Shown: positions 22,998 through 31,471 of the stretch, piece by piece
Layout of the letters: every line of letters begins with the position of its first letter
Position numbering within the stretch: position 1 is the first letter of the stretch
Assembly (NCBI GenBank): GCA_944386045.1
Contig: CALWZO010000013.1
Coordinates: forward strand, 1-38,940
Direction: 5' to 3'
DNA length: 38,940 nt
DNA from: an uncultured Clostridia bacterium
GTDB lineage: Bacteria; Bacillota; Clostridia; Oscillospirales; Ruminococcaceae
The notes under the pieces: model-generated
What the model saw: the letters and a program-made list of their open reading frames with translations, nothing else
What the model was told of the DNA's origin: nothing
Database searches by the model: none
Program-made: the position numbers and the translations under genes

Positions 22998-24770
22998 TTA
23001 ACCGTTTACACTTTCCTGGTAAGCTGCCAGATACTGTGCACTGGCTTCCAGATCCTGTGTCAGCACATTACCTGTGTCGATCAGTGTGCCAACTGTGGAG
23101 TAAACAGGCATTACATAACCGTTGTTGAAGAGCACGAAGTCTTCCTGGTTGATTGCGTAAAGAACAGCTTTGCGCAGATCTTCATTCAGGAATTTGCTGC
23201 CTTCTCTCAGGTTGAAGTTGCAGTAAGTAACGCCGTTGGAGTCTCTCTTCATAACAGTGAAGTTGCTGTCCTGTTCGATGAGGCTTACATCTGTTGCAGC
23301 AACTGTGCCCAACAGATCAACTTCGCCTGCACGGAAAGAAGAAGTAGCAGAAGAAGCGTCTTTGATGAACTTCATGTAAACATTTGCAATTTTGGGTGCA
23401 AATTCAGAATCAGCCATGTAACCGGGGTTCTTTTCAAATGTGATGCCGTAGTCATCAACAGAAACGAACTGGTAAGGGCCGGAGCACCACAGGTGGTTGT
23501 CACCGGCTTTGATAGCACCGAAGTCACCGTAGCAAACATCTTTTGTTGCATCGTAATCTTCAACAGTAAATTTGGAGTTCAGAGACATAACCTGTTCTTC
23601 GCACAGGATACCGGCTGACTGGTGAGCCAGGTAGTTCAGAACCTGCGGGAAGGGTTCGGTTGTTGTGATTTTGATAACCTGGTATGTGCCGGCAGCGTTG
23701 TTAACAGCTGTTTTGTCTGTTGTCAGAGAGCTGATCTGGCCGTCGATACCGGCTGTCAGAGTTTCCAGAACGGAAGCACCTGTAGAAGCATCTACTTTGC
23801 TGCTCAGTTCGGACAGGTCTGTTACCATTTCAATTGTCTGCATGTGGTTGTGCAGTGTGTATGTCTTGTGAGAAGCAACGCTGTTTTTGTCAGCTGCTCT
23901 TTCCAGAGAGAACACTACATCTTCACCGCCAACTCTTACGCCTGTGTTAACAGCATGGCCGCCTTCTGCTTTGGAGAAAAATACATCGTCTCTCAGCAGG
24001 AAGTAGTATTCGCTGTTGCCTTCAGCAATTGCATATGCGTAAGACAGTGATGAATCTGTTGTGATTTCATCGTCATCTGACAGGTTGATGATTTTTACAT
24101 ACATGTTACCGGACAATGTGTTCATTGTACCGTCATTTGCCTGGATCGGGTCCAGAGATGTGGGAGAAGCAGATGTCTGTGTCAGAACCAACGGTCTTGT
24201 ATCGTTGTTTGCGGCATCAATGTATTCATAAGCTTCCCAACGGCCCGGACGAGATTTGGGCTGGTTGATTGATTCAGCTTTCAGCAGCTGGTTGTTGTAA
24301 GCCAGCATTTTTACTGTTGAGTAAATCGGAACAAGGTAAGCTTTTTCTGTTATCAGATAGTTTTCCAGCTCTGTGTATGTAGCAGCTGCCTGTTCACCGA
24401 TTTCTGTTGCACCTTTGTCAATCAGTTCATCAACTTTTTCGTCGATGATAGGTGAATCATTGTAGTCACCTGTGGAATGATAGATACCGCGAACAGCGTA
24501 GTCCACGTTACCTGTAACTGTTGTCCAGCCTGTTACAGCCAGATCAAAGTTACCTGCTTCTTTTGCCCGCTGGAAGCTGGAATAGTCAGGCTGCATGTTG
24601 ATTGTAACTGTAAAGCCTGCATTTTCAAGCTGGTCGCGGATGATGTTCAAGTTGTCTTCACTTGATGATTGGCCCAAAATTGTTATAGGCTCTTTTTCTG
24701 TGGTAGTACCGCAAGCTGCCAGAGAAAAAGCCATAACAACGCTGAGGGCCAGCGCAATAAACTTTTTCAT
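22998..24770 (-). CDS. oppA: Oligopeptide-type ABC substrate-binding lipoprotein (SBP family 5), apparently circularly permuted
   Basis: 590 residues. Signal peptide with lipobox LAAC (Cys20), so anchored outside the membrane. Family 5 proteins normally start with a TLDP-type segment and end with the lobe containing the FDL..GW block. Here the order is swapped. Residues about 28-186 carry the normally C-terminal part: ITILGQSSSEDNLNIIRDQL, AGFTVTI, GNFDLAVTGW (73-82), then YTELENYL and AYLVPIY. Residues about 191-590 carry the normal N-terminal part: RPLVLTQTSASPTSLDPIQA, GGEDVVFSLERA, CSGPYQFV, FRAGEVDLLG, DLRKAVLYAINQEDF. The chain ends at SAQYLAAYQESVNG, where ordinary members continue into the missing lobe. 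It likely binds peptides for the OppBCDF transporter. Last gene of the operon, 55 bases after oppF. Confidence 0.85.
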   Translation of the reverse strand: MKKFIALALSVVMAFSLAACGTTTEKEPITILGQSSSEDNLNIIRDQLENAGFTVTINMQPDYSSFQRAKEAGNFDLAVTGWTTVTGNVDYAVRGIYHSTGDYNDSPIIDEKVDELIDKGATEIGEQAAATYTELENYLITEKAYLVPIYSTVKMLAYNNQLLKAESINQPKSRPGRWEAYEYIDAANNDTRPLVLTQTSASPTSLDPIQANDGTMNTLSGNMYVKIINLSDDDEITTDSSLSYAYAIAEGNSEYYFLLRDDVFFSKAEGGHAVNTGVRVGGEDVVFSLERAADKNSVASHKTYTLHNHMQTIEMVTDLSELSSKVDASTGASVLETLTAGIDGQISSLTTDKTAVNNAAGTYQVIKITTTEPFPQVLNYLAHQSAGILCEEQVMSLNSKFTVEDYDATKDVCYGDFGAIKAGDNHLWCSGPYQFVSVDDYGITFEKNPGYMADSEFAPKIANVYMKFIKDASSATSSFRAGEVDLLGTVAATDVSLIEQDSNFTVMKRDSNGVTYCNFNLREGSKFLNEDLRKAVLYAINQEDFVLFNNGYVMPVYSTVGTLIDTGNVLTQDLEASAQYLAAYQESVNG

Positions 24771-24825: not shown

Positions 24826-25818
24826 TTATTCGTATTTCAGCGTACCATCGGCCACTTCCTGCCATCTGTGGCAAGCCACCAGATGGTTGGGTGCAACCTC
24901 TTTCAGCTGAGGTGTCTCTTTTGTACACTGCTCAGTGGCAAAAGGACAACGGGTGGCAAAACGACAGCCTATCTTCGGGTTGATAGGTGATGTGATTTCG
25001 CCTTTGAGAATTATTTTCTTGCTCTTTTTCAGCACATTCGTGGAAGGAATGGCTGACAGCAACGCAATTGTGTAAGGATGAAGCGGTTTTTCAAATATGT
25101 CATTCTTGGGAGCTTTTTCTATCAGCTGACCCAGGTACATAACACCTATGTTTGTGGATATGTGTTTTACAACAGACAGGTCATGGGAGATAAACATATA
25201 TGTCAGGCCCATTTTTCTCTGCAGATCCATCAGCAGGTTGATAATCTGTGCCTGAACGGAAACGTCCAGCGCAGAAACCGGCTCATCACATACGATAAAT
25301 TCAGGGTTTATAGCCAAAGCACGGGCAATAACCACACGCTGACGGCGTCCGCCGTCAAATTCGTGAGGATACTGATTGTAGCTTCTCATGGGCAGGCCAA
25401 CCAGCTCCATCAGCTCTTCAACCCTGGCTTTTCTTTCAGCCTCTGTTTTGTACATTTTGTGCAGTTTCAAAGGCTCTTCGATAATCTGGCCTATGCTCAT
25501 ACGGGGGTTCAGTGATGCGTAAGGGTCCTGGAAGATAATCTGCATTTTCTGACGCATTTTTCTCATTTCGTCATCAGAAAAATTGTTTATATCCATTCCG
25601 TCATATATTACATCGCCGCTGGTGGCCTGATGAAGGCGCAGTATAACACGGCCCAGTGTACTTTTACCACAGCCGGATTCACCTACTATACCCAGTGTTT
25701 CGCCGCGGTTGATTGTCAGGTTTACATCGTCCACAGCGTGAAGATAACCGGCCGGAACCGGGAAATATTTTTTCAGTCTTCTGGTTTCCAGCAAGACTTT
25801 GTTATGGTTGTTTTCCAT
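24826..25818 (-). CDS. oppF: Oligopeptide ABC transporter ATPase OppF
   Basis: 330 residues. Walker A GESGCGKS, Walker [13 protein letters not shown], and switch [11 protein letters not shown] are present. The signature reads [15 protein letters not shown]: Asp stands where most ATPases have the Ser of SGG, a variant I recall in clostridial OppF. The C-terminal oligopeptide/HPY region has a Cys-rich block ([14 protein letters not shown]), which in DppD-type proteins can hold an iron-sulphur cluster. With OppD it drives peptide import. Start overlaps the oppD stop by one base (TAATG). Confidence 0.92.
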
Positions 25819-26798
25819 TATTCACCCTCCTGCTGTGAAAATAAATCAAAATGACACATAAATTTATGATCTGTTCCGCGCACCGGAGGCTGCTGATTTT
25901 TGCATATATCTTTGCAGTAACGGCAGCGTGGATGGAAATAGCATCCGGTAGGCAGGTCGGCAGCGTTGGAAATTGCGCCTTCTATCGGGATAAGCTCTGT
26001 GGCGTCGCTGTCCAGTTTCGGTATTGAGTCAAACAGACCTCTTGTATAAGGATGTTTCGGATTGAGGTAAACATCCTTTACAGTGCCGCTTTCAACAATC
26101 TGTCCTGCGTACATAATGGCAACATTGTCACAGGTTTCAGCAACAACACCCAGGTCATGAGTGATAAGTATCATAGCCATTTTGTACTTTTCGCGCAGCT
26201 GGTTGATTATATCCAGCACCTGTGCCTGAATGGTAACATCCAGCGCGGTGGTAGGCTCGTCAGCGATAAGCAGTTTGGGGTTGCACAAAAGGCTCATGGC
26301 TATAACAACACGCTGTTTCTGACCGCCGGAGAACTGATGCGGAAAGTCATCATACCTGTCGCTTTTTACACCAACAACTTCCAGCAGGTCAATAACTCTT
26401 TTCTTGGCTTCTGCTTTGGAAACTTTGTCATGAGTTATAACAATTTCGCTCAGCTGTTCGCCCACTGTCATGATAGGGTTGAGGGCTGTCATAGGATCCT
26501 GGAAAATCATAGCTACGCCATTTCCGCGCATTGCCTGGTTTTCCTTATCGGTATTATAAATTACATTGTTGCCTTCAAAATATATTTCGCCGTCCACAAT
26601 CATTCCCGGCGGGTCGGGGATAAGCTGCATGATGGACAAGGCAGTTGTTGTTTTGCCAGCGCCTGTCTCGCCTACCAGACCCAGAGCCTCGCCTTCTCTT
26701 ACGGTGAAATCAATACCGTTTACGGCTTTGGCTGTGGCATCGTCGGTAATATAATGTACATGAAGGTTTTTAACATCTAAAACTACTTTATTATCCAT
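25818..26798 (-). CDS. oppD: Oligopeptide ABC transporter ATPase OppD
   Basis: 326 residues. Walker A GETGAGKT, signature [15 protein letters not shown], Walker [13 protein letters not shown] and switch [13 protein letters not shown]. The C-terminal tail has [14 protein letters not shown], the Cys-rich oligopeptide transporter motif. Unlike OppF its signature keeps the Ser, so the two nucleotide sites are not equivalent in sequence. It lies 23 bases after oppC. Confidence 0.93.
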
Positions 26799-26821: not shown

Positions 26822-28348
26822 TTATTTCAGTTTCGGGTCAAGGGCGTCGCGCAGACCGTCACCGAAGAAGTTGAAGGCCAGAACGATTATGATAATTGCA
26901 AGACCCGGGAATATGGCAATGTAAGGGTTGGATTCCAGATATGTGGAACCGGCTTTCAGGATATTGCCCCATTCAGGAATGTGGGCTTCAACACCGATAC
27001 CCAGGTAAGACAGTGAAGATGTTGACAAAACAGCACTGCCTATACCCATTGTAGCCCTTACGATTACAGGAGCCAGTGAGTTGGGGATAATGTGTCTGAA
27101 TATAATTGTACCGTCTTTGGCACCGCAGGCTTTGGCTGCTTCAACAAATTCCTGGTTGGAAAGGCCCAAAACCTGAGCACGCACAGTTCTGGCGTATCCG
27201 GGTATACCACCAACGGACAGAGCCATGATCAGTGTAATTGTGCTTGCGCCGAAAGCAGCTATGATGGCGATGGCCAGCAGGATGCTGGGAACAGCACTGA
27301 GAACATCCAGTATACGCATGATGATGTTTTCTGTTCTGCCGCCGTAGTAACCGGCCAGCGCGCCCAAAAGACCGCCGACAATAATCGGAACAGCAGTGGA
27401 AATAACACCGATGATAAGTGATATTCTGGCACCGAATATAATTCTGGTAAATACGCATCTGCCGTAGTCGTCACAGCCAAAGGGATAAGCCAGGCTTGGC
27501 TGGGCCAGCATCTGTGAAAAGTTGTTGGATGTGGCAATGCGATAGTCAAATGTCAGGTTGGAACCTATGGAAACTGACAGCAGGAATATAACAACTATCA
27601 TACCTATAACTGCTGTATAGTTTTTGAACAGGCGGCGGATAACATCTATCCACTCCACACTGATTTCGTCATTTTTATGACGGTATTTTCCTATTGCTAT
27701 AAGACCGAGCAGGAATGAGAATACATTACCCAGCGCAAGGCCCAGCAGGCATATTACAGCAAAGGGCATAAATTTTTTGTCGGGTTTTTTGCCCATTGCG
27801 TATTTGCCAACAGCAAATATAACAACAAGGTTAAATATTGAGTACAGTCCGTACAGCGCCATACCCAGCACAAATGTAGATGCCTGTTTGGGTTTGAACA
27901 GGTTCAGTGCGCTTATCAGGATTATGTACAATGAAATAAGCAAAGAGTAAACAGACAGCTGATACTCGATGTTCTTTTCCTTTTTAACCAGCATCATACC
28001 TGCTATAAACAGTAAGAAGTTGCCGCAAAGGATGAAGGGAACCAGCAAAAAGCCCAGCTTTCTTGTGCCGTCGGAAATAGCTCCGGCAGGGCCTATAAGC
28101 TCTTTGGTTATCTTGCTTGTAATGAAAAATTGCAGCAAAAACTGTACTGCAAACACGGCCGCAATAATCAGCTTTGCCGTGGAAACACTTTCTGCCATAA
28201 AAGCGGTAACAGCGAGGTACAGCGCAAAAACGCCTGATACCTGCCAGCCCAGTCTGGATGTCATAAACTCAAAAGAGCCGGACAGCTTTTTGCTGTTTAC
28301 CTTTTTGATATAAGCAGCTTCGTTTTTTGTCATCTGTTTTGTAGCCAC
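26822..28348 (-). CDS. oppC: Oligopeptide ABC transporter permease OppC with a long membrane N-terminal extension
   Basis: 508 residues, against about 290-320 for ordinary OppC. The C-terminal part (about 238-508) is a complete permease: FGCDDYGRCVFTRIIFGAR, and the EAA loop EFVEAAKACGAKDGTIIFRHI. The first 230 residues hold about six further hydrophobic segments (about 35-52, 59-77, 98-121, 130-150, 158-180, 194-220) of no family I recognise. No frameshift or second start separates them. The extension may be an extra membrane domain for assembly or regulation. Between oppB and oppD with short gaps. Confidence 0.88.
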   Translation of the reverse strand: MATKQMTKNEAAYIKKVNSKKLSGSFEFMTSRLGWQVSGVFALYLAVTAFMAESVSTAKLIIAAVFAVQFLLQFFITSKITKELIGPAGAISDGTRKLGFLLVPFILCGNFLLFIAGMMLVKKEKNIEYQLSVYSLLISLYIILISALNLFKPKQASTFVLGMALYGLYSIFNLVVIFAVGKYAMGKKPDKKFMPFAVICLLGLALGNVFSFLLGLIAIGKYRHKNDEISVEWIDVIRRLFKNYTAVIGMIVVIFLLSVSIGSNLTFDYRIATSNNFSQMLAQPSLAYPFGCDDYGRCVFTRIIFGARISLIIGVISTAVPIIVGGLLGALAGYYGGRTENIIMRILDVLSAVPSILLAIAIIAAFGASTITLIMALSVGGIPGYARTVRAQVLGLSNQEFVEAAKACGAKDGTIIFRHIIPNSLAPVIVRATMGIGSAVLSTSSLSYLGIGVEAHIPEWGNILKAGSTYLESNPYIAIFPGLAIIIIVLAFNFFGDGLRDALDPKLK

Positions 28349-28365: not shown

Positions 28366-29778
28366 TTAATAGTTTTTCATCTTGGACTTAATTCTCGGGT
28401 CGATAACAGCGTACATTATGTCAACAATCAGGTTTACGATTGAAACGACGAATGAAACATATATAACGCCGGCCAATACTGCCGGAATGTCCGGTACAAA
28501 CTGCTTTTCAACAATGTATAAGCCGATACCGTTGATGTTGAAAACTTTTTCTGTAACTGATGAACCGCCCAGCATACCGCCAAACTGCATACCGATTGTT
28601 GTGATGATCGGTATCATGGCGTTGCCCAGGATGTGTTTGAGAACAACCTTTCTTTCCGGCAAACCTTTTGCGCGGGCAGTGAGGATGTAGTCTGAATTTT
28701 TTACCTCCATCATGGACGAACGGGTCATACGGGCAACAGACGCCGACATACCGGTACCAAGGACTATGGCCGGCATGATAAGCGTAACCGGATTTCCCAC
28801 CTGGAAAGTGGCGGGCAGCCATTTGTTTTTGATGGAGAATTCCAAAATCATCATAAGGCCCAGCCAGAAGTTGGGTATGGACAGACCCAGCAGGGCTATG
28901 AACATGGCTATATAGTCGAATGATGTATAAGGTTTGATAGCTGAAATGATACCTGAGGGAATTGCTATTACCAGAGATACCAGCATTGACCAGAATGTAA
29001 CCTGCAATGTGATGGGGAATTTGTTGGCCAGGGCCACAGCTATGTTTTCGTTACCCTGGAAAGATTTACCCAGGTTGAATGTCAGCAGGTTCTGGAACTT
29101 GCTGAACAGCTGTACCAGGTAAGGCTGGTCAAGTCCGTGCATTTTGTTAAACCGTTCTACCTGTTCAGGTGTGGCGGTCACACCCAGAATATTTAAAGCC
29201 GGATCCATAGGTGATATGTAAAGTATGGTAAATACAAGGAATGTAACGCCAAACAATACAAATACCATCATAACCAAACGGTCAACCACATACTTGGAGA
29301 TGGGGTTGGTAAACAAAATCATTATGATGTACATCGGAAATGATGTGATGATTGAAAGCGCCAGGAGTGCTCCGTTGCTGATAAGAGAAGAATACACCGA
29401 AGCCATGGTAACTTCTTCTATCGATTTGCTTTGGGCAATCTGTTTTACTTTGTCTTCCAATATCCAGTCAAAATTCTTTTTGGCAATCTGTTCTGCCTGT
29501 TTTTTCATATCCCGCTCGGAAGCTGATTTTTGGAAATATTCGTTTTTCCTTTTGATCTGCTCCAATGCTGTCCGGGTAAGTTCGCTTAACAGAGACGTGC
29601 CTTCCATTTCCCGGCGTACCTGATTTCTTATCTCAGCATAGCCGTCTTTCCCTTTTTTGCCTTTGTAAACAAAAAAAGTAATGAGCATTGTCGGCAATCC
29701 CAGCACCCACAGCCAGATGCGATACTTTGAATTGCGATACATTCTTTTGAATGTATCTTTAAAACTACTGATGTTCAT
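28366..29778 (-). CDS. oppB: Oligopeptide ABC transporter permease OppB with a charged N-terminal extension
   Basis: 470 residues, against about 305-340 usually. The permease core starts near residue 162 (VVDRLVMMVFVLFGVTFLVF) and includes HGLDQPYLVQ, the FNLGKSFQGNE segment and the EAA loop YILTARAKGLPERKVVLKHI. The first 160 residues have one membrane segment (about 21-37), a long polar helical stretch (about 45-120) that may form a coiled coil, then another hydrophobic segment (about 133-156). First gene of the operon, with AGGAG before the start and a promoter 97 bases upstream. Confidence 0.88.
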   Translation of the reverse strand: MNISSFKDTFKRMYRNSKYRIWLWVLGLPTMLITFFVYKGKKGKDGYAEIRNQVRREMEGTSLLSELTRTALEQIKRKNEYFQKSASERDMKKQAEQIAKKNFDWILEDKVKQIAQSKSIEEVTMASVYSSLISNGALLALSIITSFPMYIIMILFTNPISKYVVDRLVMMVFVLFGVTFLVFTILYISPMDPALNILGVTATPEQVERFNKMHGLDQPYLVQLFSKFQNLLTFNLGKSFQGNENIAVALANKFPITLQVTFWSMLVSLVIAIPSGIISAIKPYTSFDYIAMFIALLGLSIPNFWLGLMMILEFSIKNKWLPATFQVGNPVTLIMPAIVLGTGMSASVARMTRSSMMEVKNSDYILTARAKGLPERKVVLKHILGNAMIPIITTIGMQFGGMLGGSSVTEKVFNINGIGLYIVEKQFVPDIPAVLAGVIYVSFVVSIVNLIVDIMYAVIDPRIKSKMKNY

Positions 29779-30114: not shown

Positions 30115-30144
30115 TTAAAAATATTTGACCACTTGTGATATAAT
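30115..30144 (+). promoter_or_regulatory. Extended -10 promoter of the M28 peptidase gene
   Basis: TATAAT at 30139 with TGA before it; the -35 (TTAAAA, spacer 18) is weak, as often with extended -10 boxes. Confidence 0.55.
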
Positions 30145-30187
30145 ATTTTATACTGTATTATACAAAAAATTTGAAAGGAACACGCAA

Positions 30188-31471
30188 ATGGAAATAAGCG
30201 GAAAAAGAGAATTTGATCTTTTGAAAAAAATCGGCTTTGTAAGAATGGCCGGCACCGAGCAGGAAAAGCAGGCCGCAGAAATTCTTATGGAAGAAGTTCG
30301 CTCCATAGGCCTGGAACCTGTGTGCGAAGAATTTGAAATAGAGGATGCAGACATCACAGCTGCCCAGCTGGAAATTTTGCGGCCTTACAGCAAAACTTAC
30401 ACCGTAACAGCATACAAACTGTCCGAAAACACACCGGCAGAGGGCCTGACAGCACCTTTTTACTATGCCGAAAACATGACTGATGCCGACATGGCAAATG
30501 CAGAAGGCAAAATAATACTGGTAAACGGTTTCCTCAGCCTTGACCTGTACAGAAAAATAGTGAAGTCAAAAGCTGCCGCATTCATCACCATGAGCGGCAA
30601 CATGCTGGAGACTGAAGAAAATTCAGACCTGTTTACACGCACTCTCAGAAGCACAATGAGGGAGTTCGGCAACATGCCCGCCGCCAACATACGCATGACA
30701 GATGCTTTTGATATCGTCAAAAACGGCGCAACCATGGCCAAGCTGACAGTGGTGAACACACCCAAGAAGCTGACCAGCCGCAATGTTATCGCCACAGTAA
30801 AAGGCACAGAAAAACCCGATGAGGTTATCACTTTCGGCGCTCACTTTGACTCAGTAGAATTTTCCACAGGTGTTTATGACAACGGCGCCGGCAGCGTTAT
30901 AAACATGGAAATCATGCGTCATTTTGTAAACAATCCTCCCAAGAGAACTGTCCGTTTCTGCTGGTTCGGCAGTGAAGAGATCGGTCTGGAAGGTTCCAAG
31001 GCTTTTGTAAGAGACCATGAAGAAGAGCTGAAAAAAGATGTGTACATGATAAATGTAGATGTTGCCGGCAGCGTTATCGGCTATGATATCGCCAGAGTTG
31101 TTGCCACCGCAGCAGCAACCAGCCATGCCGACGCATTTATGAAACGCAAAGGCTATGCAGTTGATGTAAAACAGGATATCTACTCCTCCGACTCCATCCC
31201 CTTTGCAGACAAAGGTGTTCCGGCAATCAACTTTATCAGATTTGGTCATCAGATAGGCGGCGCGTTTATCCACTGCCGCAACGATGTAATCGACTATCTG
31301 TCACCTGAAAGCCTGGAAAGAACAACCAAGTTTATCCTGGACTACTCCGACGAAGTAATCAACTCCGCAGTTATGCCGATAGACAGAACTGTTCCGCCGG
31401 AAATGGTTGAAAAGGTAGACAAATACCTGAACAAAAAAGCTCTGGAAGAAGCACGCAAAGACAAAAAATAA
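30188..31471 (+). CDS. M28 family zinc aminopeptidase
   Basis: 427 residues from the ATG at 30188, chosen for the AAAGGAA before it; an earlier ATG at 30125 would overlap the promoter. Two-zinc aminopeptidase motifs: GAHFDSV (first His and Asp), VYDNGAGS (bridging Asp), WFGSEEIGLEGS (catalytic Glu and zinc Glu), MINVDVAG and a late His in FIHCRNDVIDYL. A PA-like insert region precedes the catalytic part. No signal peptide, so it should act in the cytosol on short peptides. It is divergent from opp, suggesting import followed by hydrolysis. Confidence 0.9.
   Translation: MEISGKREFDLLKKIGFVRMAGTEQEKQAAEILMEEVRSIGLEPVCEEFEIEDADITAAQLEILRPYSKTYTVTAYKLSENTPAEGLTAPFYYAENMTDADMANAEGKIILVNGFLSLDLYRKIVKSKAAAFITMSGNMLETEENSDLFTRTLRSTMREFGNMPAANIRMTDAFDIVKNGATMAKLTVVNTPKKLTSRNVIATVKGTEKPDEVITFGAHFDSVEFSTGVYDNGAGSVINMEIMRHFVNNPPKRTVRFCWFGSEEIGLEGSKAFVRDHEEELKKDVYMINVDVAGSVIGYDIARVVATAAATSHADAFMKRKGYAVDVKQDIYSSDSIPFADKGVPAINFIRFGHQIGGAFIHCRNDVIDYLSPESLERTTKFILDYSDEVINSAVMPIDRTVPPEMVEKVDKYLNKKALEEARKDKK

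Follow-up and report, generated by a model that had tools for sequence, protein, structure and literature searches.

Binding proteins of family 5 (cluster C) are well-studied uptake receptors, and the order of the parts along their chain has been assumed. Here, we analysed a stretch of 38,940 nucleotides (referred to below as the window) from an uncultured Clostridia bacterium of the Ruminococcaceae (assembly GCA_944386045.1, contig CALWZO010000013.1), in which a reverse-strand gene encodes a substrate-binding protein (SBP) of this family with its two parts in swapped order. An earlier reading of the gene from its sequence alone (the sequence-only reading) had proposed a circularly permuted oligopeptide-binding protein and knew of no described permuted OppA. 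In our view the product is, very probably, a permuted cluster C SBP with a predicted two-lobed flytrap fold, likely serving as the lipid-anchored receptor of an ATP-binding cassette (ABC) importer whose four genes lie directly upstream.

Permuted SBPs are already known in cluster B. TpMglB-2 (Tp0684, PDB 5JX2) is a permuted glucose-binding lipoprotein of that cluster, for which the name ‘Type Ic / Cluster Bc’ was proposed, and its type is present in many Gram-positives according to the authors (PMC4990184). The window protein resembles it as a naturally permuted SBP of an ABC importer with a predicted lipid anchor. However, TpMglB-2 is of cluster B and the window protein of cluster C, TpMglB-2 has another break point and a sugar ligand, and the available extracts of PMC4990184 mention no enlarged permeases for it. 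Among the matches listed in the open-licence PubMed Central (PMC) literature there was no permuted cluster C protein, and Tp0684 was the sole naturally permuted receptor noticed among them; in the extracts of PMC2588589, circular permutation occurs in the reference list only and SBP_bac_5 in a table. The statement on permuted OppA thus holds for cluster C among these matches, but not for binding proteins in general. A cluster C case would add a new variant, for which the parallel name would be ‘Cluster Cc’.

The second system for comparison is DppABCDF of E. coli, in which the dipeptide ends are held by R383 and D436 of DppA, the partners of E41 and R42 in the scoop loop of DppB (PMC12136057). 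The window system has the same set of subunits and follows the type I logic of import; in contrast, DppB (339 aa) carries no extension, and in the family described here the scoop-loop R42 and its DppA partner D436 are both replaced. Compared with cluster C SBPs as a whole (PF00496; GsiB, DppA, OppA, NikA), the window protein has homology over both parts of the chain, the predicted fold at residues 184-590, the lipobox and the gene cluster in common, whereas the order of the parts is reversed, the position of D436 is never acidic (81/81) and the permeases are extended at their N-termini.

Alignments confirm a permuted chain order in the window protein

The open reading frame at 22998-24770 of the reverse strand starts with ATG, is intact and carries a lipobox (LAAC) with Cys20; its product is the single match in its own 1.8-Mb genome, a draft assembly of 53 contigs. 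The gene is divided as follows:

22998..24770, reverse strand: permuted family-5 (cluster C) SBP, predicted lipoprotein, 590 aa
24711..24770, reverse strand: signal peptide and lipobox LAAC, Cys20 (Cys invariant in 81/81 aligned members)
24279..24710, reverse strand: segment that closes ordinary members, residues 21-164 = GsiB 341-495 (hhalign; PDB sequence search of residues 24-192)
24201..24278, reverse strand: linker from ancestral C terminus to ancestral N terminus, residues 165-190 (stretch left uncovered by both alignments)
23001..24200, reverse strand: segment that opens ordinary members, residues 191-590, of which 191-583 = GsiB 27-340 (hhalign and structural superposition)

PF00496 matched the protein with 138.8 bits (curated cut-off 32.4), and the match fell into two pieces in reversed order: profile positions 297-367 at 24462-24674, in the N-terminal part of the protein, and positions 11-273 at 23028-24032, in the C-terminal part. 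The other PF00496 gene found in the same genome (n=1) gave a match in one piece (profile 2-361). A Pfam match displayed by its best stretch reveals one part only, so such a swap is easily overlooked. None of the 7 named NCBIfam equivalogs listed (Opp4A, SapA, NikA, DppA, OppA) reached its cut-off, the best with 49.7 bits vs. 650. Matches to PDB sequences were likewise off-diagonal: in 5u4o, chain residues 197-329 corresponded to query 426-570 and 380-491 to query 42-151, and in 3tpa, chain residues 14-126, 189-300 and 391-489 corresponded to query 199-311, 430-544 and 61-157, respectively (chance matches of a short stretch to unrelated proteins, E 0.2-0.9, were disregarded).

We also aligned the protein with E. 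coli GsiB by profile-profile comparison (hhalign). Residues 191-583 matched GsiB 27-340 (probability 99.8, E 5.8e-28) and residues 21-164 matched GsiB 341-495 (probability 97.2, E 4.2e-11), the next alternative alignment having a probability of 3.7 and E of 0.012; the swapped match is well outside the range of chance. Thus GsiB is tiled once by two query segments, and at the sequence level each lobe is represented exactly once. A partial duplication or a missing lobe, instead of a true permutation, might be suspected from the length of the protein, which exceeds the 512 aa of E. coli GsiB, and from its insertions; however, each part of GsiB is covered once with no credible alternative, and the only stretch of the AlphaFold2 model with a predicted local distance difference test score (pLDDT) <50 is at residues 14-23, the lipobox. 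We regard such a rearrangement as very improbable.

The landmarks of the sequence-only reading were correct: the closing lobe comes right after the lipobox, the ordinary opening lies near residue 193, and the chain ends at DLEASAQYLAA, where ordinary members enter the closing lobe. The dot-plot that it had proposed corresponds to two off-diagonal lines against ordinary members and not to a single diagonal. At the level of sequence, the circularly permuted order of the chain (lipobox, ordinary-end segment, ordinary-start segment) is confirmed.

The permuted order is shared by a family of Bacillota proteins

For comparison across genomes we used 201 rows (198 distinct sequences) composed of the window protein, 120 listed homologues and 80 loci, the latter being the best 80 of 325 relatives from a genome scan with two short patterns. 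The C-part preceded the N-part in 199/201 rows, the reverse was seen in 0, and one part only was seen in two, P0107 (751 aa) and P0120 (375 aa). Homologues with the same order, which the sequence-only reading had suggested looking for, are therefore numerous. With a profile that included signal peptides, 86/201 rows were called swapped, the lipoprotein signal aligning to the start of the profile; the parts were still swapped in the rows shown except P0120. As controls, 39/39 ordinary proteins appeared as a single piece in a profile built from them, and among 54 PF00496 genes in 10 genomes (one genome with none) only two, both members of the family, were reversed. P0107 carries NMT1-type binding-protein domains (PF13379/PF09084) before a truncated permuted protein, which may reflect either a true fusion or a chimera created in assembly.

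The window comes from a draft assembly and many of the Clostridia loci from metagenome bins, which could raise the suspicion of an artefact of assembly, annotation or strain in which two gene pieces were misjoined. However, the reading frame is unbroken and has a signal peptide of its own, the order is common to nearly all rows, it recurs in two loci from complete-genome records (L059, L071), and two single-contig genomes (G335, G376) carry the protein with the PF00496 order reversed. Since independent isolates share the order, we consider this explanation refuted, its probability being practically nil.

According to NCBI ranks, 61 of the 80 loci are from Bacilli, 17 from Clostridia, 1 from Bacillota without class, and 1 is unplaced. 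In a tree of 61 proteins (quick search, with the parts restored to the ordinary order and the ordinary row L125, 766 aa, left out) the 23 permuted proteins formed one clade on a long stem, with a Shimodaira-Hasegawa-like approximate likelihood ratio test (SH-aLRT) value of 100. This topology is consistent with a single old permutation event. Among 147 genomes of the window’s own order the protein was found in 1, the window’s genome alone, and its distribution is thus patchy.

The model has the cluster C fold at residues 184-590

The AlphaFold2 monomer of the SBP had a pLDDT of 92.6 and a predicted template modelling score (pTM) of 0.88. Residues 184-590, i.e., the last ~400, can be superposed on solved members over the first two thirds of the latter and have the cluster C fold there. 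Residues 24-190 are homologous by profile, and the pTM is that of the whole model; the structural aligners, which are sequential, covered 184-590 only. Of the structural check proposed by the sequence-only reading, the confident prediction and the superposition on solved members were obtained, the latter for 184-590 alone. Fold matches include the peptide-binding DppA and OppA as well as high-ranking opine- and HEHEAA-binding proteins. No cluster B match was present among the listed fold matches, all of family-5 type, which excludes nothing on Type Ic / Cluster Bc.

The permuted SBP is accompanied by enlarged permeases

On the reverse strand, the SBP gene closes a compact cluster with the order OppB-like, OppC-like, OppD-like, OppF-like, SBP, followed by a terminator-like hairpin. 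Two binding-protein-dependent (BPD) permeases and two oligo_HPY ATPases thus cluster with it, as in systems of PF00496 SBPs. The features around the SBP gene are:

28366..29778, reverse strand: OppB-like permease, 470 aa, with a ~158-aa N-terminal extension at 29305-29778
26822..28348, reverse strand: OppC-like permease, 508 aa, with a ~228-aa N-terminal membrane extension at 27665-28348
25818..26798, reverse strand: OppD-like ATPase, 326 aa
24826..25818, reverse strand: OppF-like ATPase, 330 aa
22945..22976, reverse strand: terminator-like hairpin with T runs, 3' of the SBP gene (read in the sequence)
30125..31471, forward strand: M28-family peptidase gene (PF04389), divergent from oppB (PF04389 match, 118 bits)

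Both permease extensions of the window fall outside the Pfam matches, and they are conserved across the family alignments. Ordinary proteins of this type are shorter: E. coli OppB, DppB, NikB and GsiC have 306-339 aa, and 26 ordinary OppB-like control frames have 269-347 aa. In a hydropathy count with a cut of 1.5, two hydrophobic segments were found in 66/70 OppB extensions, and six in 55/70 OppC extensions (five in 13). At a cut of 1.6 the OppB extension of the window showed one such segment (138-156), the other one peaking at 1.56; judged from its sequence, two membrane segments are likely there. In the OppC extension a G-N-x-F motif is repeated, near alignment residues 109 and 207, and hardly varies among 26 sequences.

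In 70/80 loci, genes for an OppB of 440 aa or more and an OppC of 470 aa or more lie upstream of the SBP gene. Four loci are partial, namely L009 (contig end) and L059, L071 and L083 (broken or short frames), and two are cut by a contig end; a permease pair of ordinary length upstream of the SBP gene was found in none of the 80. In a tree of permease cores, from which L009 and L125 (the latter for its very long branch) were left out, the extended OppB cores formed one clade (100/100, the bootstrap being not fully settled). The ATPase genes vary: in most Bacilli loci (L020-L082, e.g., L021:4133) one fused, divergent ATPase of ~580 aa on the opposite strand replaces OppD and OppF, and L009 has a 668-aa in-line frame at the expected place of OppD/OppF.

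We then compared the occurrence of both partners in genomes. Among 398 genomes of the phylum, the profile of the SBP (at E up to 1e-60) and that of the OppC extension (at E up to 1e-5) match the same 4, and among 148 genomes of the family of G376 both match the same 39, with one partial OppC match (G443). The two draws overlap, so these counts are not additive; that each pair of searches used the same genomes was judged from matching handles and totals, and in many genomes the first scan assigned scores to only some of the candidates. Distances between SBPs and between permeases correlate as well (Mantel test). As far as sequences go, this correlation shows co-inheritance of SBP and permeases. 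The sequence-only reading had also proposed altered docking on the permeases; we infer that this is more likely because the enlarged permeases are co-inherited.

Dipeptide contacts of DppA are not retained in the family

D436 of DppA (precursor numbering) aligns to V85 of the window protein, and this position holds V in 68, G in 8 and A in 5 of the 81 members, with an acidic residue in 0/81. At the position of DppB R42, Arg was found in 0/45 permeases, whereas the position of E41 holds E in 28 and Q in 11. R383 of DppA aligns to a gapped, variable stretch near residue 37, with R in 13/81. A DppA-like clasp is thus absent. The term ‘oligopeptide-binding’ is a family label for a protein whose peptide ligand is putative, and the residues of DppA that contact the dipeptide are not retained.

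The same architecture with a non-peptide ligand (e.g., a metal chelate, an opine-like or a sugar-amino-acid compound, like the ligands of other cluster C proteins) has to be considered seriously, at a probability somewhat short of even. It would agree with the replaced contacts and with the high rank of opine- and HEHEAA-binding proteins among the fold matches, while the presence of DppA and OppA among the same matches speaks for peptides, as does a neighbouring gene. In 6 loci an M28 peptidase gene stands head-to-head with the importer system, and it does so with each of the 4 SBP copies that lack permeases; these are all 10 Oscillospiraceae loci kept. As this gene adjoins in one lineage, a peptide or peptide-like ligand is favoured and appears likely in Oscillospiraceae.

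Probable assignment of the permuted SBP to the adjacent importer

Several points weigh against our reading. Residues 24-190 are placed in the fold by pTM and sequence and not by superposition; the AlphaFold model of OppB is of moderate quality (pLDDT 79.1, pTM 0.58); and the Mantel correlations are equally expected from plain shared descent. That the R383 and D436 contacts are not retained in the alignments speaks against a peptide-binding mode like that of DppA, and the peptidase neighbour is confined to 10/80 loci, with none in the other 70. Finally, in 4/80 loci (L013, L016, L017, L019) a permuted SBP has no permease within 6 kb.

These solo copies would also suit a real, folded protein whose main role is that of a sensor or scavenger co-receptor and not that of a receptor dedicated to the importer next to it. 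However, extended permeases are paired with the SBP in 70/80 loci, and three of the four solo copies share a bin with a permease locus, as judged by contig title (L013 with L007, L016 with L008, L019 with L010), as a second receptor would. We find a sensor or co-receptor unlikely. The four solo SBPs, each beside an M28-like peptidase gene, are likely second receptors for the same importer.

A model of the permuted receptor and its translocon

For a receptor of the adjacent importer, the following mechanism may be proposed. We take the cut site to lie within the C-lobe of ordinary members, and the ancestral termini to lie on the N-lobe. The ancestral termini would have been joined by the ~26-residue linker and new termini opened in a C-lobe loop; the lipid tether is thus predicted on the other jaw of the flytrap, the anchor having shifted from one jaw to the other. 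The receptor would capture its ligand and dock on the two enlarged permeases, and would release the ligand when OppDF binds ATP. The extensions of the permeases probably make up for the new position of the tether or make use of it; a compensating or anchoring role is likely, given the additional membrane segments in the permeases of these systems.

In a broader form, which to us has about equal chances of being right and wrong, the family would be an unrecognised subtype of Bacillota peptide-type importers, in which the anchor was transferred from N-lobe to C-lobe by one ancient permutation, and the receptor is held by matching N-terminal membrane domains that arose in the permeases. If this is true, receptor topology and translocon architecture are locked together. 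The natural permutation provides a ready experiment on whether the positions of the anchor and of the termini matter for docking and ligand release, and the strict genomic partnership with extended permeases in the sampled genomes suggests that they do.
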